Shown in pieces: positions 42,162-55,931 of a stretch of 64,000 bases of DNA. The notes beneath the pieces were generated by a model. The model saw only the letters and a list, made by a program, of their open reading frames with translations. It made no database searches and was not told the DNA's origin. Source of the DNA: Cyclobacteriaceae bacterium (GTDB lineage Bacteria > Bacteroidota > Bacteroidia > Cytophagales > Cyclobacteriaceae); contig JANXYC010000046.1 in the NCBI GenBank assembly GCA_025350305.1, forward strand, positions 1 through 64,000. Direction: 5' to 3'. Numbering within the stretch: the first letter of the stretch is position 1; the number at the start of each line of letters is the position of its first letter. Position numbers and translations under genes: made by a program.

Positions 42162-42387
42162 GATTGATCTGTTTTAGTGACATTGACAAAGTTAGTCGTT
42201 CTTTTTTCAAAAACGATTCCAGTAGGTAGAGAGGATGTATTGGTTATGCAAGGCCTCTACCGAACATTCGTTATTATGCATTTCTCAAAATTTTTCCGGC
42301 AAAAGAATAGATACTGTTAACATTTTTTTACAACCTTGTAGAACATCAACAATAAAAAAAGTGAAGCGGAGGAGTATACGAGAAGAA

Positions 42388-42471
42388 ATGGGTTCATTGG
42401 TCCGCAAGGTCAATCATATCATGGTACTGATTATTGTCATCATTATTCTGCAGCCGGCGGGGTGGTGTTGA
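42388..42471 (+). CDS. Putative branched-chain amino acid leader peptide
   Basis: MGSLVRKVNHIMVLIIVIIILQPAGWC*: run VLIIVIIIL just before a terminator and ilvE. Confidence 0.75.
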   Translation: MGSLVRKVNHIMVLIIVIIILQPAGWC

Positions 42472-42496
42472 TCTGATTTATATAAACAGAATTTTC

Positions 42497-42530
42497 AACC
42501 GCCCCGACACACTCGGGGCGGTTTTGTTTT
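42497..42530 (+). terminator. Attenuator-type rho-independent terminator upstream of ilvE
   Basis: AACCGCCCCGA-CACAC-TCGGGGCGGTT followed by TTGTTTT. Confidence 0.85.
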
Positions 42531-42569
42531 CTATAGCTGGTCACAAACTAACGATTGTTTTAAAAAGGT

Positions 42570-43457
42570 ATGTATTACAACGAAAGCACGATTCTTTTCC
42601 TGGATGGAAAATTTATAAAAGCCGCCGATGCCAGGGCAGATATCTTCAGTCAGACCCTTCATTACGGTTATGGAGTGTTTGAAGGTATCCGTTCTTACCA
42701 AACGATCAATGGGACAAAGATTTTTAAACCGGGTGAACACTTTGAACGCTTGCGTCGCAGTTGCATTTTGATGGGAATTCCGATGAATTACAACGTGGAG
42801 GAACTTACCCAGCTTTCTTATCAGGTGCTGGAGCGAAATAATTTGTCCGAAGCCTACCTGCGGCCGCTGGTTTTTTGCAGTCCGAATATGTCTCTCACGG
42901 CGCCCAAAGAAGTATCCGTCATGATAGCTGCCTGGGATTGGGGAAAATATTTCAGCAACACATCGTTGCGTGTATGCATCTCATCGTTTCAGCGACCGAA
43001 CCCCAAGTCAGTAAAAGTAGAAGCCAAAGCTTGCGGCTATTATGTAAACTCCATTCTTGCTACGATGGAAGCAAAAGAGCGTGGCTTCGATGAGGCGCTC
43101 ATGTTGGATATGAATGGCTTCGTGGCCGAAGGGCCGGGCGCCAATTTCTTTTTCGAAAAGGACGGCGTGCTCCACACACCACCACTTGGAAATATTTTAC
43201 CGGGCATTACACGCCATACGGTGATTGACATTTGCCGTGAATTGGATATTCCTGTCGTTGAAAAGTATTTCAGACCGGAAGATCTCTTTGAAGCTGACAG
43301 TGCTTTCTTCTGCGGCACAGCGGCAGAGATTACCGCCATCGAGTCAATCGAAGGACAAACTTTTCACAAGCCCTGGAAAAAATCGCTGGGAAGGGTGATG
43401 CAGGAGGCGTATCAGAGTATTGTGTTGGATAAGAGTTACAGTTATGTTATAGTCTAG
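42570..43457 (+). CDS. ilvE: Branched-chain amino acid aminotransferase
   Basis: [53 protein letters not shown]. Confidence 0.93.
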
Positions 43458-43530: not shown

Positions 43531-45216
43531 TTGAAAATGGAATTAAATAGGTATAGCAAAACCATCACTCAGGATCCGACTCTTCCGGCGTCGCAGGCAA
43601 TGCTGTATGGTGTTGGCCTTACAGAACATGATTTGACGAAGGCACAGGTTGGTATAGTAAGTACAGGCTTTGATGGCAACACGTGCAATATGCATCTCAA
43701 CGCATTGGCAGGTGAAGTGAAGCAAGCGGTTTGGGATCAGGAGTTAGTGGGATTGATTTTTCATACGATCGGCGTGAGTGATGGCATTTCAAATGGAACG
43801 GAAGGGATGCGGTATTCGCTGGTAAGCCGTGAGGTAATTGCCGATTCGATCGAAACAGTGTGCGGTGCTCATTACTATGATGGTTTGATTGCTGTGGTAG
43901 GCTGTGATAAAAATATGCCAGGTTCGCTTATCGCGATGGGGAGATTGAATCGCCCGGCCATCATGGTGTACGGTGGCTCCATCGCCGGTGGTCATTGGAA
44001 AGGTAAGTCGCTGAATATTGTTTCGGCGTTTGAAGCCTTGGGCGAAAAGCTTGCTGGCAAACTTTCAGACGAAGATTACAAAGGCATTATTCAAAATTCC
44101 TGTCCGGGTGCCGGTGCGTGCGGGGGCATGTACACGGCCAATACGATGGCTTCGGCGATTGAAGCGCTGGGGATGTCATTGCCGTACTCATCTTCCAATC
44201 CCGCGCTGGGAAAAGAGAAATCAAAGGAGTGTCATGATGCGGGAAAAGCGATTCGTCACCTTCTTGAAAAAGACGTGAAGCCGCGTGATATTATGACGTT
44301 CAAGGCATTTGAAAATGCCATTGCAATCGTGATGGTGCTGGGTGGATCGACCAATGCTGTCCTGCACTTGATCGCGATGGCAAAATCCGTGGGCGTGAAA
44401 ATTACCCAGGAGGACTTTCAGCGTATCTCTGACAAAACCCCGCTACTCGCCGACCTGAAACCGAGTGGTAAATACCTGATGGAAGACCTCCATAAAATCG
44501 GCGGCACTCCGGTAGTGATGAAATACTTGCTTGACAAAGGATACCTCCATGGAAATTGTCTCACCGTGACCGGAAAAACCATTTCGGAAAATCTAAAGAG
44601 TGTATCACCCCTCGACTTTGAAAAGCAGCATGTTATTTATCCTGTAGAAAGGGCGATCAAGAAAACCGGCCACCTGCAAATTCTTTACGGAAACCTTGCT
44701 GAGAAGGGATCGGTAGCCAAGATCACCGGCAAAGAAGGCGAACGATTCAAGGGGACCGCGCGCGTTTTTAACGGCGAGTTTGAATTGGTCGATGGAATCA
44801 CGTCCGGGAAAATCAAGGAAGGTGATGTGGTGGTGATACGGTATGTGGGCCCGAAAGGAGCACCCGGTATGCCTGAAATGCTGAAGCCAACCAGCTTAAT
44901 CATGGGGTCCGGACTTGGGAAATCGGTGGCGCTCATTACCGATGGAAGATTTTCCGGAGGGTCTCACGGTTTTGTGATCGGACACATCACGCCGGAAGCA
45001 TTTGACGGAGGCTTGCTTGCCCTCGTGGAAGATGGTGACTGGATTGAAATTGACGTGAAGAAACGCCAACTCAATCTGCTCATTGACGAAAAAACATTGG
45101 CGATCAGAAGATCGCACCACAAAGCTCCCTCACTGCGCGTGACGAGTGGCGTACTATACAAATATGCAAAACAAGTAAAAACAGCTGCCGATGGATGCGT
45201 TACTGACGAAGCCTAA
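43531..45216 (+). CDS. ilvD: Dihydroxy-acid dehydratase
   Basis: [65 protein letters not shown]. Confidence 0.96.
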
Positions 45217-46951
45217 GCCGGCCCTGGCTCCGGATAGTTATCCGGAGTCGAAACAAAAGATCTCAGGATCGCAGGCATTGTTGAGAAGCCTGGTGGCTGA
45301 GGATGTAAATATTTTGTTTGGTTATCCGGGTGGCGCGATTATGCCGGTGTACGATGCGTTGTATGATTTTGCGGATCAGCTCACACATATTTTAGTTCGT
45401 CACGAACAAGGAGCAGTGCATGCAGCCCAGGGCTATGCCCGTGTTTCCGGGAGAGTGGGAGTGGCCCTTGCCACTTCAGGACCAGGCGCTACCAATTTGG
45501 TCACCGGCCTTGCCGATGCATTGATTGACTCAACACCCATCGTTTGTATTACGGGTCAGGTGTTCGCCCACTTGCTTGGTACGGACGCTTTTCAGGAGAT
45601 TGACGTAGTGAATACGACCATCCCGGTGACGAAATGGAACATCCAGGTGACGGAAGCCAAAGACATCGCTCCTGCAGTGGCCAAAGCTTTTTATATCGCA
45701 AAAAGCGGAAGACCCGGACCTGTGCTGATCGACATTACCAAGAATGCCCAAAACGAATTGATTGATGAATCTGAATATGAACGATGCATCCACATACGTA
45801 CCTACAAACCTAAACCGGTCTTGCAGTTAGGGCAGGTGAATGCCGCCGCCACATTAATTAACAATGCAAAGCGGCCGTATCTGCTGGCCGGACAAGGGGT
45901 ATTATTATCAGGTGCTAACAGCGAGTTACTTGCATTCTCAGAAAAAACCGGAATACCTGTGGCCTGTACGCTACTGGGCCTTGGAACCTTTCCCACCGAT
46001 CATCCGAATTATGTAGGGTTCCTGGGCATGCACGGCAATTACGGCCCGAATATGAATACCAACGAGTGCGATGTACTGATTGCAGTGGGTATGCGCTTTG
46101 ACGACAGGGTCACGGGTAACGTGAACAAGTATGCGAGACAGGCAAAGATCATTCATATTGAGATTGATAACGCCGAGATTAACAAGATTATCAAAACGGA
46201 TGTGTCCGTCTATGCCGACGCGCGCGAAGCACTGGCAACATTGACAGAAAAGTGTACACAGAAACGTTATGATGACTGGCTGGAGAGCTTTCATAGATTT
46301 GACAAGATTGAATATGAGAAAGTTATACGGCACGAGTTCAATCCTACCGGCGAATTGATGATGGCGGAAGTTATTAATCATCTTTCCCTGTTAACAAATG
46401 GCGAATCAATTATTGTTACCGATGTTGGCCAGCACCAAATGGTGACATCGCGGTACTATAAATTCAAAAGCCCGCGGACGAATGTTACGTCGGGCGGAGC
46501 CGGGACCATGGGCTTTGCACTTCCTGCTGCAATCGGCGCCAAGCTGGCCATGCCACGCCAGCAGGTGGTGGCTGTGATCGGTGATGGTGGTTACCAAATG
46601 ACCATCCAGGAGTTGGGCACTATCATGCAGTATAAGATCCCCGTGAAAATATTGGTACTCAACAACAACTTCCTGGGGATGGTGCGGCAGTGGCAGCAAC
46701 TGTTTCATGAAAAACGCTATTCATTTACAGAAATGCAGAATCCAGACTTTGTAAAAATTGCACAGGCATATGGCATTACAGCCAGAAAAGTAGAGCGCCG
46801 CGAAGATTTGCAAAATGCCTTGCGGGAAATGTTAGCGGCAACGACCTCCTATTTTCTTGAAGTAGTGGTCGGTAAAGAAGATAATGTGTTTCCCATGGTG
46901 CCGGCGGGTGCAGGGGTTGGCGAAATATTGTTGGAAGAATCAAAAAAATAA
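45191..46951 (+). CDS. ilvB: Acetolactate synthase large subunit
   Basis: [75 protein letters not shown]. Confidence 0.96.
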
Positions 46952-46965
46952 AGCATCGGCAGCGC

Positions 46966-47262
46966 ATGAAGCAAGATTTCACAATGGAACTATCGTCGGA
47001 CAATAATTTTTCTGTTCTTAACAGGATCATTAATATTCTTAACCGCCGAAGGGTCCGGATTAAAAAACTAATGGCGCATGAAAACGAAGACGATTTCCGC
47101 CGGGGCGGAGTCATCATGCTCCTGTACACCACACACGACATGGCCGAGAAAGTAAAAGTACAACTGGAAAAATTGATCGAGGTTGATAAAGTGAGCTACC
47201 AGGAAGGCAACATCTATCAGGAACTCAGCGAACAAACAGTTGACCTAAATCAGACCACCTAA
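46966..47262 (+). CDS. ilvN: Acetolactate synthase small (regulatory ACT) subunit, short form
   Basis: FSVLNRIINILNRRRVRIKKLMAHENEDDFRRGGVIMLLYTTHDMAEKVKVQLEKLIEVDKVSY; position between ilvB and ilvC. Confidence 0.85.
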   Translation: MKQDFTMELSSDNNFSVLNRIINILNRRRVRIKKLMAHENEDDFRRGGVIMLLYTTHDMAEKVKVQLEKLIEVDKVSYQEGNIYQELSEQTVDLNQTT

Positions 47263-47325
47263 CATAAACACCTCAACACATAAACACATTAAAACATTAA
47301 CACGTAAACACATTAACACGTAAAA
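47262..47325. repeat. Iterated word spacer (aacacataaacacattaaaacattaacacgtaaacacattaacacg)
   Basis: Iterated AACAC/ACATTA words read directly; related text at about 50877-50945. Confidence 0.75.
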
Positions 47326-47327
47326 CT

Positions 47328-48398
47328 ATGGCCAAAATTAATTTCGGAGGAACAGTAGAAGAAGTAGTAACGCGCGAAGAATTTCCCATGGAAAAAGCGT
47401 TAGAAGTGTTGCAAAAGGAAACCATCGCGATCATCGGCTATGGTGTGCAAGGTCCTGCACAAGCACTGAACCTGCGCGATAATGGGTTTAAGGTAATTGT
47501 AGGCCAACGCAAAGGGTCCACGACCTGGAAGAAAGCAGTTGAACATGGCTGGGTGCCAGGTGAGACGTTATTTGAAATTGAAGAGGCTGTCCGGCAGGGC
47601 ACGATTATCGAGTTCCTTCTTTCCGATGCGGGACAGATAGCCTTGTGGCCAGTCATTAAACCTCACTTGACAAAAGGAAAGACTTTATATTTCTCGCATG
47701 GCTTTGGCATCACCTTTAAAGAACAAACGGGCATCGTCCCGCCGGCTGATATTGATGTCGTATTGGCAGCTCCGAAAGGATCGGGTACATCTGTTCGCCG
47801 GTTGTTCTTGCAGGGCAAAGGTATCAACTCGAGCTACGCTGTATTCCAGGATGCCACCGGAAATGCCAAGTCGAAAGCGATTGCGCTGGGAATTGGCGTT
47901 GGATCGGGCTATTTGTTTGCGACCGATTTTAAAAAAGAGGTTTACTCCGATTTGACTGGCGAGCGCGGCACCTTAATGGGCGCCATTGCCGGAATTTTTG
48001 AAGCACAATATGAAGTTCTGCGATCCAAAGGCCACTCACCTTCTGAAGCATTTAATGAAACAGTGGAAGAGCTCACCCAAAGTCTTATGCCGCTGGTAGC
48101 CGAAAACGGTATGGACTGGATGTACGCCAATTGTTCGACCACGGCACAGCGTGGTGCGTTGGATTGGAAGAAAAAATTTAAAGCAGCCACACTGCCCGTG
48201 TTCAAAGAATTGTATGATAGCGTTGCCAGTGGAGCCGAAGCTAAACGGACAATCGAAACCTGCAGCAAACCGGACTACCGGGAAAAGCTGGCAGAAGAAT
48301 TGAAAGAAGTTCGTGAGAGCGAACTGTGGCAGGCAGGCGCTGCAGTTCGAGCGCTGCGACCCGAGAAAGCAACTGTTGAAGCAAGTATGATAAACTAA
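47328..48398 (+). CDS. ilvC: Ketol-acid reductoisomerase
   Basis: IAIIGYGVQGPAQALNLRDNGFKVIVGQRKGS; LYFSHGFGITF; VVLAAPKGSGTSVRRLFLQGKGINSSYAV. Confidence 0.96.
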   Translation: MAKINFGGTVEEVVTREEFPMEKALEVLQKETIAIIGYGVQGPAQALNLRDNGFKVIVGQRKGSTTWKKAVEHGWVPGETLFEIEEAVRQGTIIEFLLSDAGQIALWPVIKPHLTKGKTLYFSHGFGITFKEQTGIVPPADIDVVLAAPKGSGTSVRRLFLQGKGINSSYAVFQDATGNAKSKAIALGIGVGSGYLFATDFKKEVYSDLTGERGTLMGAIAGIFEAQYEVLRSKGHSPSEAFNETVEELTQSLMPLVAENGMDWMYANCSTTAQRGALDWKKKFKAATLPVFKELYDSVASGAEAKRTIETCSKPDYREKLAEELKEVRESELWQAGAAVRALRPEKATVEASMIN

Positions 48399-48480
48399 CG
48401 AACTCCAGTACACGCTTCGTTTGACTTCATTTAAGGGCATAAACAGAGATGATGAGCGTAGCCGGAGTGGATCCATCAAA

Positions 48481-49734
48481 ATGCAACCAGCCACAAAAAT
48501 TCATTCCCTCAATATCAACGCAGCTTACGAAGTGCTAAAGTCGGTTGTGTTAAAAACCCCCTTGCAGTTTCACCGCAAGCTTTCGGAGAAGTTTGGTTGT
48601 GAACTTTATTTGAAGCGTGAAGACCTGCAGGTTGTGCGCTCGTATAAAATCCGGGGAGCGTATAACTTAATGCAGAGCCTGGACGAAGGGCAGCGCAAGC
48701 ATGGAGTCGTTTGTGCAAGTGCAGGAAACCATGCACAAGGTGTTGCTTTTTCTTGTAAACTGCTGAACATTCAGGGCGTTATCTACATGCCGGCCATTAC
48801 ACCGAAGCAGAAGATCAACCAGATAAGAATGTTTGGTGGAACCCACATCGAGACTGTATTGATAGGTGATACCTTTGACGAATGCCAGACCCACGCCATA
48901 GAATTCGCGGAGAGAAACGACCGTGTTTTTATTCCGCCGTTTGATCATCCCAAAATAATGGAAGGTCAGGGTACCGTGGGCAAGGAAATTTTGGAAGACC
49001 AATCCCATCTTGATTTTCTTTTTGTGCCGGTGGGAGGAGGAGGCTTGTGTGCGGGGGTAGGCAGTTATTTTCAAACCTATTCACCCCAGACAAAGATTAT
49101 CGGGGCAGAGCCACAGGGCGCACCGTCCATGAAGGAAGCATTGAAAGCAGGCCGGCCGGTTGTGCTTGAAGCTATTCAGCGATTTGTGGATGGCGCTTCC
49201 GTGAAGAAGGTAGGCGATCAAACGTTCCCGATTTGCAAAGAGGTGCTGACCGATCTACTGTTGGTGCCGGAAGGAAAAGTGAGTTCAACCATTCTGCAAT
49301 TATATAATGAGGATGCGATCGTGGCTGAGCCTGCCGGCGCCCTATCCATTGCTGCTTTGGATCAGTATGGGGATAAGTTGAAGGGTAAAAAAGTAGTGTG
49401 TATCCTGAGTGGTGGCAATAATGACATCGACCGGATGCAGGAGATAAAGGAGCGGTCCTTGCTCTACGAAGGGTTAAAGCATTATTTTATTGTTCGCTTT
49501 GCCCAACGCCCCGGGGCATTAAAAGAATTTGTTAACCATATCCTGGGCCCGACGGATGATATTGTTCGTTTTGAATTTATACAAAAGCATAACAAGGAAA
49601 CCGGGCCTGCCTTGATTGGTATTGAAGTGAAATCAAAGGATGATTTTTCTTCCCTGATTGAACGCATGGATCATTATAAACTCAATTACACGCTGATTAA
49701 CCAGCATGAAAACTTGTTTGAGTATTTAGTCTAG
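48481..49734 (+). CDS. ilvA: Threonine dehydratase (biosynthetic)
   Basis: LYLKREDLQVVRSYKIRGAYNLM; ASAGNHAQGVAFSC; VPVGGGGLCAGVGSYF; C-terminal ACT-like domain. Confidence 0.95.
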   Translation: MQPATKIHSLNINAAYEVLKSVVLKTPLQFHRKLSEKFGCELYLKREDLQVVRSYKIRGAYNLMQSLDEGQRKHGVVCASAGNHAQGVAFSCKLLNIQGVIYMPAITPKQKINQIRMFGGTHIETVLIGDTFDECQTHAIEFAERNDRVFIPPFDHPKIMEGQGTVGKEILEDQSHLDFLFVPVGGGGLCAGVGSYFQTYSPQTKIIGAEPQGAPSMKEALKAGRPVVLEAIQRFVDGASVKKVGDQTFPICKEVLTDLLLVPEGKVSSTILQLYNEDAIVAEPAGALSIAALDQYGDKLKGKKVVCILSGGNNDIDRMQEIKERSLLYEGLKHYFIVRFAQRPGALKEFVNHILGPTDDIVRFEFIQKHNKETGPALIGIEVKSKDDFSSLIERMDHYKLNYTLINQHENLFEYLV

Positions 49735-51447: not shown

Positions 51448-51500
51448 GGAGTCAGACTGAGCGGAGTCGAAGTCAAGCTGGGCTTGTCGAAGCTAACGTT
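51448..51500. repeat. Bacteroidetes-type dispersed repeat (gtcagactgagcggagtcgaagtcaagctgggcttgtcgaagc)
   Basis: GACTGAGCGGAGTCGAAGTC motif recognised from general familiarity with Bacteroidetes intergenic repeats. Confidence 0.6.
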
Positions 51501-51576
51501 TGTAAGTGATTTGAAATTTTTTTACAAGATTACTGAACATGTAGTATAAAAATTATCATATTCGTAACAACAAGAA

Positions 51577-51620
51577 ATGCCCTGTCAAGACGAAAGTTTT
51601 GACAGGGCGATTTCGTTTTA
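51577..51620 (+). terminator. Terminator/attenuator-like hairpin upstream of leuC
   Basis: GCCCTGTCAA-gacgaaag-TTTTGACAGGGC then gatttcgtttt. Confidence 0.7.
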
Positions 51621-51648
51621 AAGTACCACGGGCAAACTAACGATTGTT

Positions 51649-53061
51649 GTGAACGACGTAAAACCAAAAACAATTTTTGAAAAGATATGGGATAATCACG
51701 TCGTGAAGCGCGCGGATGGTTACCCGGATGCATTGTTCATCGACCGGCATTTCATCCATGAAGTCACCAGCCCTCAGGCATTTGATGGTTTGAAGAAACG
51801 TGGTATTAACGTTTTTAATACACAGCGTACAACCGCTACCGCCGACCACAACGTTCCCACAAAAGATCAACACCTTCCCATCAAAGAAGCACTATCGCGT
51901 CACCAGGTTGAAACCCTGCGAAAAAATTGTAAGGATTTCGGAATCGAACTGTTCGACCTTGGTCATCCCTTCCAGGGAATCGTGCACATCATTGGTCCGG
52001 AACTTGGATTAACCTTGCCAGGCATGACAATCGTGTGTGGTGACAGTCACACATCAACGCATGGTGCCTTTGGTAACATCGCATTTGGCATCGGCACCAG
52101 TGAGGTGGAGCAAGTGCTGGCCACTCAGTGCATTCTTCAATACAAGCCCAGGACCATGAAGATCGAGATCAATGGAAAACTTGGCAAGGGCGTGGTGAGC
52201 AAGGACATCATTCTTTACATCATTTCACAGCTGACGTCCAGCGGTGCGACGGGCTATTTCGTGGAGTATACAGGAGACACCATCCGCAATCTTTCCATGG
52301 AAGCGCGAATGACGATTTGCAACATGAGTATTGAAATGGGTGCCCGTGGAGGATTAATCGCTCCGGATGAAACAACATTTGATTATATCAAGGGAAGAAG
52401 ATTTTCCCCGCAGGATAAGTCTTTTGATGACAAGGTGGAGGAATGGAAAAAATTAAGAACGGATGACGGTGCCGAGTACGATGCGGTTTTAAAATTTAAT
52501 GCCACCGACATTGCGCCAATGATCACCTACGGCACGAATCCCGGCATGGGCATGCGTATCACGGATCGGATTCCAAAGATGGAAGAACTAAAAGAGATAA
52601 GCGAGCAAGTGTCTTTCAAAAAATCACTTGACTACATGGGCCTGGAACCTGGCTCGCAACTGATTGGCAAAGCCGTTGATTATGTTTTTATCGGCAGTTG
52701 TACCAATGCACGGATTGAGGATCTCCGGCTGGTAGCCTCGATGGTAAAGGGAAAAAAGAAAGCGGCGAACGTGGTGGTATGGGTAATTCCCGGATCCAAA
52801 CAGGTAGAAGAGCAGGCACGGCGCGAAGGTCTCGACAAAATATTTGAAGCCGCTGGTTTTGAATTGAGAAGCCCGGGCTGCTCGGCATGCCTGGGTATGA
52901 ATGAGGATAAAGTTCCTGTTGGAAAATATTGCATCGCCACGTCCAACAGGAATTTTGAGGGAAGACAAGGACCGAAGTCAAGAACTTTTTTGGCCAGCCC
53001 ATTGAGCGCAGCGGCTGCGGCGATAACGGGTAAGGTTACAGATGTAAGAGAGTTTGTATGA
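51649..53061 (+). CDS. leuC: 3-isopropylmalate dehydratase large subunit (GTG start)
   Basis: [74 protein letters not shown]. Confidence 0.96.
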
Positions 53062-53645
53062 GCATGAAAGAAAAATTTGGCCTGTTGCGATCTTCTGCTG
53101 TTCCGCTGCCAGACGAGAACATTGATACCGATCAAATCATTCCGGCGCGATTTCTGAAATCCACCACACGTGATGGTTTTGGTGATAACCTTTTCCGTGA
53201 CTGGCGATATGATGATCAAGGAAAAATGGTGAAAGATTTTGTGTTGAATTCACCCCATTACTCAGGAAAAATTCTGGTGGCGGGAAAAAACTTTGGGTGC
53301 GGCAGCAGCCGTGAGCATGCAGCCTGGGCCATTTATGACTATGGGTTTCGTGTGGTGATCTCCAGCTTCTTTGCTGATATTTTTAAAAATAACGCCCTGA
53401 ACAACGGGCTGCTACCCATCGTTGTGTCTGACGCGTATTTGAAAAGACTTTTTAAAACCGTTCATAAGAATCCTGCAACAGAGATTGGGGTTGACTTGCA
53501 AAAACAAACAGTAGAAGTGAATGAACTGGAGGAGCGTTTTGACATCAATCACTATAAAAAAACCTGTATGATCAACGGGTACGATGATATTGACTACTTA
53601 CTGAGTCTGAATAAGGAGATACGGGCGTTCGATCTGACACATTAA
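53058..53645 (+). CDS. leuD: 3-isopropylmalate dehydratase small subunit
   Basis: [41 protein letters not shown]. Confidence 0.96.
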
Positions 53646-53648
53646 CTG

Positions 53649-54746
53649 ATGAAGAAAAAAATAATAATTCTCCCCGGTGACGGTATCGGAAAAGAAGTGA
53701 CAGCTGAAGGGAAAAAGGTTTTGGAAAAGATTGCGGAAATCTTTGACCATACATTTGAATTTGATGAGGCGGTCATTGGTCATGATGCTATTGAGTCAAC
53801 AGGGCAGCCATTGCCTGACGAAACACTTTCTAAACTCAGGAACTGTGATGCAATTTTATTCGGTGCCGTGGGCCATCCTAAGTACGACAATGATCCTACC
53901 CTGAAAGTACGACCCGAGCAAGGGCTGCTTAAAATGCGCAAAGAACTTGGCTTGTATGCCAATCTTCGTCCCATCCGTTTGTTTGAGGAGCTTCTGGATT
54001 CCTCCAGTATCAAAGCGGAGATTTTAAGGGGCGCTGATATTCTTTTCTTCCGGGAGTTGACGGGAGATGTGTATTTCGGAGAGAAAGGAAGAAAGGACAA
54101 TGGTCATACAGCGTATGATGTGATGATTTATCAACGGTATGAAATTGAACGGATCGCCCACAAAGCGTTTCAGGCAGCGCGTACCCGTAAAAAGAAAGTT
54201 ACTTCCGTTGACAAGGCCAACGTGCTGGAAAGTTCCCGGCTGTGGAGAGAAACTGTACAAGAGATCAGTAAGCAGTATGCGGATGTGGCACTTGAACATT
54301 TGTTTGTGGATTCGGCTGCCATGAAGTTGATTCAAAACCCACGCAGCTTTGATGTGATCCTCACGGGAAATCTTTTTGGCGACATCCTTAGCGACGAAGC
54401 ATCTCAGATCGCTGGCTCTATGGGCATGTTGGCATCGGCATCCATAGGTGATACGGTGGGTTTGTATGAACCTATTCACGGCAGTGCACATGATATCACC
54501 GGAAGAGGAATTGCGAATCCGCTGGCCTCAATATTATCCGTTGCGCTACTGTTGGACATTTCTTTTGGATTAAAAGAGGAAGCTGACACGGTCATAACGG
54601 CCATAGAACAAACATTGAAAGCCGGTTTTCGCACAGTTGACATTGCCAATGCGAAAACAGCGAAAGAAAAAATAATAAATACACAGGCGATGGGGAATTG
54701 CGTTTTGAAACAATTGTCCCTGATCAATGTGTCGATTAGTCAATAA
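53649..54746 (+). CDS. leuB: 3-isopropylmalate dehydrogenase
   Basis: IIILPGDGIGKEVTAEGKKVL; DVILTGNLFGDILSDEASQIAGSMGMLASASIG. Confidence 0.96.
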   Translation: MKKKIIILPGDGIGKEVTAEGKKVLEKIAEIFDHTFEFDEAVIGHDAIESTGQPLPDETLSKLRNCDAILFGAVGHPKYDNDPTLKVRPEQGLLKMRKELGLYANLRPIRLFEELLDSSSIKAEILRGADILFFRELTGDVYFGEKGRKDNGHTAYDVMIYQRYEIERIAHKAFQAARTRKKKVTSVDKANVLESSRLWRETVQEISKQYADVALEHLFVDSAAMKLIQNPRSFDVILTGNLFGDILSDEASQIAGSMGMLASASIGDTVGLYEPIHGSAHDITGRGIANPLASILSVALLLDISFGLKEEADTVITAIEQTLKAGFRTVDIANAKTAKEKIINTQAMGNCVLKQLSLINVSISQ

Positions 54747-54767
54747 CACCTGATAATCAAACGAACG

Positions 54768-55931
54768 ATGAGCCACAAAATTCAAATCTTCGACACCACA
54801 CTGCGCGACGGCGAGCAAGTACCAGGTTGCCAGCTCTCTACCGAAGAGAAAGTGATCATTGCCCGTGAGCTTGAGGCGCTGGGTGTTGATGTGATTGAGG
54901 CGGGATTTCCAATTTCCAGCCCCGGCGATTTTCTTTCGGTGGTGGAGATTTCAAAAGCTGTTAAAAATACGATCGTGTGCGGGCTTACACGTGCCAGGAA
55001 AGAAGATATTGACGTGGCCGCGGAGGCTTTGCATCATGCCAAACGTGGACGAATTCATACCGGAATTGGTTCATCGGATATTCACATTAAGCATAAGTTC
55101 AAATCCAATCGTGAGCAAGTGTTGGAGCAAGCCGTTTGGGCTGTGCACTATGCGAAGGGTAAAGGCTATGAAGTTGAGTTTTACGCCGAGGATGCCGGAC
55201 GTGCTGACTTGGCGTTCCTGGCCCGGATGGTAGAAGCGGTGATCGCATCAGGTGCAGACGTAGTGAACATACCTGACACGACGGGATATTGCCTGCCCCA
55301 TTTATATGGGAAGAGAATCCAATACCTGGTCGAAAACGTAAAAAATATTGAGAAAGCTGTTATCTCCGTTCATTGCCATAATGATTTGGGACTCGCTACC
55401 GCCAACACGTTATCAGGCTTGATTAACGGCGCACGTCAGGCGGAAGTGACGATCAATGGAATTGGGGAGCGCGCCGGCAATACCTCTCTGGAGGAAGTAG
55501 CGATGACCATTCAAACACACAAAGACCTTGAGTTGTATACGAATATTAAGTCGGAACGAATTTATGAAATCAGCCAATTGGTTTCAGAGCTAATGCGGAT
55601 GCCCGTACAGGCGAATAAAGCGATCGTGGGAAAAAATGCATTCGCCCATTCTTCCGGTATACATCAGGATGGATTTTTGAAACACGCTGAAAATTATGAA
55701 ATTATCAACCCGGCGGATGTAGGCGTGCCGTCTTCTTCGATCGTTCTTACGGCCCGCAGTGGCCGTGCCGCACTCAAGCACCGCGCGGAATTGTTAGGAC
55801 ATCACGTTGAAGGAGAAGAACTGAACATGTTATATGAGAATTTCCTGCTGGTGGCAGATGAAAAGAAGATGGTCAACGATGCTGATTTGATGGTGTTGAT
55901 GACGAGTCTCCCTGTTCTGATCAACAAGTAA
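54768..55931 (+). CDS. leuA: 2-isopropylmalate synthase, short form without C-terminal LeuA allosteric domain
   Basis: [63 protein letters not shown]; ends at 387 aa. Confidence 0.9.

Follow-up and report, generated by a model that had tools for sequence, protein, structure and literature searches.

The closest described counterparts of the locus analysed here are the enterobacterial ilvGMEDA and ilvBN operons, with whose leaders (ilvL and ivbL) it shares a leader peptide rich in Ile, Val and Leu, competing antiterminator and terminator structures, and the target pathway. The locus differs from ilvL and ivbL in that its operon begins with ilvE, its leader lacks a Shine-Dalgarno sequence at normal spacing, additional palindromes flank it, and no peptide or RNA family match (Rfam) was obtained. 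In Staphylococcus aureus, a leader rich in Ile and Leu codons likewise stands with a terminator before the branched-chain amino acid (BCAA) genes of the ilv-leu operon, beside control by the DNA-binding CodY; that system differs in that the antiterminator put forward for it engages the U-tail and not the terminator 5' arm, it precedes ilvD, and it responds to leucine (PMC5794164). BCAA leader ORFs are also found in the 5' region of ilv operons in actinobacterial ilvB leader peptides (PMC1262725) and in the Corynebacterium ilvB-II motif (PMC10272879), which belong to a different phylum; the likeness drawn here is one of leader ORF position. Within Bacteroidota, leader-peptide attenuation of amino-acid operons has already been proposed for Flavobacterium psychrophilum, where, according to the main text of that report, structured 5' regions give strong clues for such a mechanism before amino-acid operons, and the conserved 5' elements that are named include hisG and pheA; the same main text names no ilv leader and contains no antiterminator analysis (PMC9723704). 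Little literature was found on ribosome-mediated attenuation or transcription-translation coupling in Bacteroidota.

The window analysed is a 64-kb stretch of DNA from a Cyclobacteriaceae bacterium, and the features of its ilv locus given here lie on the forward strand unless stated otherwise. The controlled operon starts with ilvE (42570-43457; TIGR01122 and NF005146, both above cut-off), followed from 43531 to 49734 by ilvD, ilvB, a 98-aa ORF at the ilvN position, ilvC and ilvA. The ilvD, ilvB, ilvC and ilvA genes have NCBIfam matches above cut-off and run in the same direction as ilvE, while the 98-aa ORF has no NCBIfam match at 1e-20; gene spacing suggests that ilvE-ilvD-ilvB-[N]-ilvC-ilvA is co-transcribed. 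Upstream of ilvE, between 42240 and 42600, the elements follow one another in the order motif copy, promoter-like block, leader ORF, terminator with U-tail, second motif copy and ilvE. The promoter-like block is a -7-like box, ACAACCTTGT (42330-42339), with a conserved CTTGTA, which is kept in the genus alignment and appears to resemble the Bacteroidota TAnnTTTG box, and transcription of the leader would start near 42344-42350.

The leader ORF, MGSLVRKVNHIMVLIIVIIILQPAGWC, comprises 27 codons from an ATG at 42388 to a TGA at 42469-42471 (42388-42471 in all), and its stop is separated by 25 nt from an intrinsic terminator hairpin at 42497-42523, AACCGCCCCGA-CACAC-TCGGGGCGGTT, with a 5' arm at 42497-42507 and a 3' arm at 42513-42523. 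The hairpin has 11 bp (-20.9 kcal/mol) and is kept in the genus alignment, as is its U-rich tail, TTTTGTTTT (42522-42530), and ilvE starts at 42570, 46 nt past the hairpin. As in a classical attenuator, an intrinsic terminator thus stands between a leader ORF and the first gene of the operon, and this short ORF clusters codons for the products of the pathway, with 10 isoleucine, leucine or valine (I/L/V) codons among its last 18. In dinucleotide-shuffled upstream sequence, a terminator-preceding ORF with at least 10 I/L/V in its last 18 codons occurred in 0.25% of trials. The first-pass annotation had described the 27-codon ORF, the 25-nt gap and the 11-bp hairpin with U-rich tail next to ilvE, and its coordinates and translation agree with those obtained here. 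The Shine-Dalgarno sequence absent at normal spacing before this ORF was counted against the attenuator reading; its absence is usual in Bacteroidota.

For comparison, we looked for IlvE homologues in 59 relatives, in genome contigs and in 390 genomes of the class, 49 of which gave a match; 93 ilvE upstream regions from the same genus and other Bacteroidia were then read and compared. A leader is present, for instance, in the cultured relative Ohtaekwangia koreensis DSM 25262 (L045). A terminator with an ORF ending at most 75 nt before it was found in 80 of the 93; among the 13 regions without a call, a likely leader is visible by eye in L049/L078 and L117. At least 7 I/L/V in the last 18 codons are present at 76 of these 80 loci, as opposed to 11% of dinucleotide shuffles, and the mean is 9.3 at the 80 loci versus 3.7 after dinucleotide shuffling before the terminator; in these counts a real locus could draw on up to four terminators, of which the best was kept, but a shuffle on a single one, and the relatives are not independent, biases which we judge to be much smaller than the gap itself. 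Across the genus the leader ORF is kept with frame-preserving gaps, its start and stop being kept in the close relative L002, and I/L/V make up 81-97% at most of positions -14 to -7. Within -14 to -11 the three residues interchange freely while jointly reaching 81-97%, which argues that it is the codon class and not the nucleotide string that is kept. Outside the I/V/L run the leader is poorly conserved, and it can be as short as about 15 or as long as about 45 residues. It had been proposed that the idea would fall if orthologous leaders lacked the ORF or the Ile/Val/Leu run; this check did not go against the idea, as nearly all leaders of the genus, and most of the ilvE leaders with a terminator in the rest of the class, have such a run, a stop just before the terminator and an arm complementary to it. 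The leader is not peculiar to the window genome and, by this comparison, is conserved through much of the class. One member of the genus, L114 (G016), has no recognisable leader peptide before ilvE while keeping the CAAACTAACAATTGTT motif, and this was counted against the attenuator reading. Four loci (L087, L089, L091 and L097) carry two full units of BCAA leader ORF and terminator in tandem before ilvE, in L091 MKNQTLYIIIIIQTL and then MKISIITAVIIIHLPA, which are apparent serial attenuators.

An alternative pairing partner for the terminator 5' arm is found at the end of the ORF, where antiterminator arm A, CGGGGTGGT (42458-42466), is predicted to pair with arm B, ACCGCCCCG (42498-42506). 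That the 3' end of the peptide-coding sequence could pair in this way, with one G-U, had been pointed out before, and the computed A:B helix has 9 bp including one G-U, in a segment that folds at -19.3 kcal/mol. The offset of arm A from the stop codon differs between lineages, and column-by-column covariation was therefore dropped in favour of a swap test, in which the sequence surrounding each leader stop was tested for pairing with its own terminator 5' arm or with dissimilar terminators of other loci. Over the 80 loci, which are not independent, the mean duplex energy was -15.1 kcal/mol for own pairs, -9.6 and -9.7 for swapped pairs and -7.8 for shuffled A; own pairs were stronger than 95% of shuffles at 67 of the 80 loci and than 95% of swaps at 36. 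The window pairing is less distinctive than that of some loci, being equalled by 4% of swaps, which was counted against the attenuator reading. Examples of matched arms are GGACGC with GCGTCC in L100, ATGAGAAAG with CTTTCTCAT in L051 and GAGAATGG with CCATTCTC in L099, and in L026, L028 and L030 GAGGUG pairs with CGCCUC, where a C-to-U change in arm B faces an A of arm A and the G of arm C is retained. Between lineages, arm A tracks the terminator 5' arm, and the 9-bp helix and this lineage-matched complementarity are what is expected of an antiterminator competing for that arm.

The position of the codons relative to arm A is compatible with a stall-dependent switch. The run GTA CTG ATT ATT GTC ATC ATT ATT CTG (V L I I V I I I L; 42424-42450), delimited by the stall model and by I/L/V conservation in the genus, lies just ahead of arm A. 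In a geometric model of the window, all 10 predicted antiterminator pairs remain when the ribosome stalls at or before 42442, 8 when it stalls at 42445, 6 at 42448 and none from 42454 onward, which points to Ile and Val as the probable signals; by the same model the Leu codon at 42448 is marginally and that at 42427 well placed for stalling. Among the 76 leaders, I/L/V frequency by distance upstream of arm A is 0.05 just inside the arm, 0.12 at 0-5 nt, 0.57 at 6-11 nt, 0.94 at 12-17 nt and 0.68-0.81 at 18-35 nt, falling to about 0.2 beyond 60 nt. The model and this profile over 76 loci are consistent with an arm A that would be freed by a stall and covered by a ribosome at the stop codon, and the geometry agrees with the control-region concept modelled previously (PMC1183508). 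A further 1:2 hairpin is predicted between 42441-42451 and 42457-42467 (42441-42467; -11.1 kcal/mol); it would sequester arm A in the absence of a stalled ribosome and so protect basal termination. Over the 76 leaders this region folds only moderately better than shuffles (mean z -0.95), so that the 1:2 helix is weakly supported, a point also counted against the attenuator reading. At equilibrium and without a ribosome, a transcript ending at B folds as A:B, which was counted against the attenuator reading and suggests that basal termination would depend on kinetics.

Taken as a classical ribosome-mediated attenuator acting on transcription of the ilvEDB(N)CA operon, a reading that we consider very probable, the leader would be transcribed by RNA polymerase with a ribosome close behind. 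When Ile- and Val-tRNA (and probably Leu-tRNA) are charged, the ribosome would reach the stop at 42469 and cover arm A, leaving arm B to pair with arm C, and transcription would terminate. When Ile or Val is short, it would stall in VLIIVII and leave arm A exposed, which would pair with B ahead of the synthesis of C, so that the polymerase would read on into ilvE. Translation of the ORF, ribosome-polymerase coupling, termination and the amino-acid response are all steps that we infer. The logic is that of the enterobacterial ilv leaders, as the first-pass annotation held, and it is supported by the ORF, the terminator, the A:B alternative and their conservation, together with the lineage-matched complementarity and the codon placement. 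As far as could be checked, such an attenuator was not found described in this lineage, while the mechanism is of a known type. The 2010 comparative survey of Lopatovskaya et al., cited in PMC4833913, may already list some of these leaders.

Similar arrangements occur elsewhere in the same genome. Upstream of hisG (L161, G000:C177) there is a His leader, MKMKQTQNIHPHHHHALAC, with a terminator and a 7-bp antiterminator, and upstream of trpE (L162, G000:C129) a Trp leader, MIKNLSTAWWWHRSDSDRCMAVK, with a terminator, for which a simple duplex check gave a weak antiterminator. Given these His and Trp leaders with terminators, the genome appears to make general use of the mechanism. A Thr/Ile-rich candidate ORF, MQITPFRFFTTSTITITG, was also seen at L163 (G000:C106), without a clear terminator, before an aspartokinase-family gene whose product, at 819 aa, has the size of an aspartokinase-homoserine dehydrogenase fusion.

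Flanking the ilv leader is a palindromic motif, TAACGAWTGTT, with an upstream copy, TAACGAATGTT (42263-42273, reverse strand), kept as CCTAACATTCGTTA in most genus members, and a downstream copy, CTAACGATTGTT (42548-42559), between the terminator and the ilvE start; CCTAACATTCGTTA on the promoter side and CAAACTAACGATTGTT just before ilvE, where the downstream copy lies, rank with the best-conserved parts of the genus alignment. At leu, the motif or a near copy is found at 51494-51504 and 51637-51648, around the leuC promoter-terminator unit, the latter site being the same 12-mer as the downstream ilv copy. The genes leuC, leuD and leuB and a leuA-like gene span 51649 to 55931 (NCBIfam). The LeuA-like protein (54768-55931) has only 387 aa and matches the catalytic part of 2-isopropylmalate synthase; TIGR00973 is below cut-off, and since it ends before the C-terminal part of the profiles it may be without leucine feedback control. 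The leuC leader has a conserved strong terminator, at 51579-51608 in the window, and no Leu-rich leader ORF; in several relatives (L136, L139, L141, L145, L146 and L148) a conserved AATAACCTAACCTAAACCT stretch stands in this leader instead. Exact TAACGWWTGTT has 7 occurrences in the genome (4.2 Mb), of which 3 belong to ilv/leu. A wider regulon was considered and rejected, as the 4 other exact matches fall within or close to genes with no relation to the pathway, and a control search with the pattern reversed gave more hits, 15 versus 7. A promoter inverted between the repeats was likewise rejected, since the two copies differ in the same way in most genomes and recombining repeats would stay identical. 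The two copies are 235 to 311 bp apart at ilv and 139 to 188 bp apart at leu, and these distances show no clear phasing with the DNA helix (R 0.29 and 0.18), so looping between the motifs is not supported.

The pair is a likely operator for a BCAA regulator, a dedicated one being the simplest reading, and its conservation around the ilv leader suggests a second layer of control. A more elaborate two-layer switch special to the family, in which a DNA-binding regulator would act on TAACGAWTGTT pairs around the ilv and leu promoters, with the site just past the terminator modulating termination or read-through and leu doing without a leader peptide, is a tentative and rather unlikely proposal. 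It is improbable that the peptide is incidental, with control by a regulator at the motif pair and the terminator a passive or roadblock-assisted stop. That almost every member of the genus retains the pair at ilv, and many of them at leu, speaks for such a regulator, as does the same terminator and motif layout at leu without a Leu-codon leader, but if the peptide were incidental one would not expect the codon class to be conserved, the codons to follow the stall-position profile or A and B to co-vary, leaders are also kept by Bacteroidia in which the motif was not seen, and control by a DNA-binding regulator is compatible with attenuation rather than exclusive of it.

A structured leader with a terminator before a biosynthetic operon could also be a small-molecule riboswitch or a T-box, which we hold very improbable: the window leader matches no Rfam family at gathering score, its best sub-threshold matches being far below cut-off, and the genus alignment contains no aptamer-like conserved block outside the ORF, the hairpins and the motif. 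The hydrophobic Ile/Val/Leu run might be a transmembrane segment of a small functional membrane protein, which is scarcely credible given the poor conservation outside the run, the variable length, the 3' codons that follow the RNA pairing and the terminator close by.

As regards annotation, no Rfam family corresponds to the ilv, his or trp leader of this genome, and the same search at gathering score returned no match for the thr and leu loci. For the biology of the phylum, the many co-varying leaders before ilvE in Bacteroidia, together with the his and trp leaders of this genome, are indirect evidence of transcription-translation coupling. The phylum largely does without Shine-Dalgarno initiation, and leader attenuation requires closely following ribosomes and efficient leader starts; the ilvE, his and trp leaders would be ready-made reporters for coupling.
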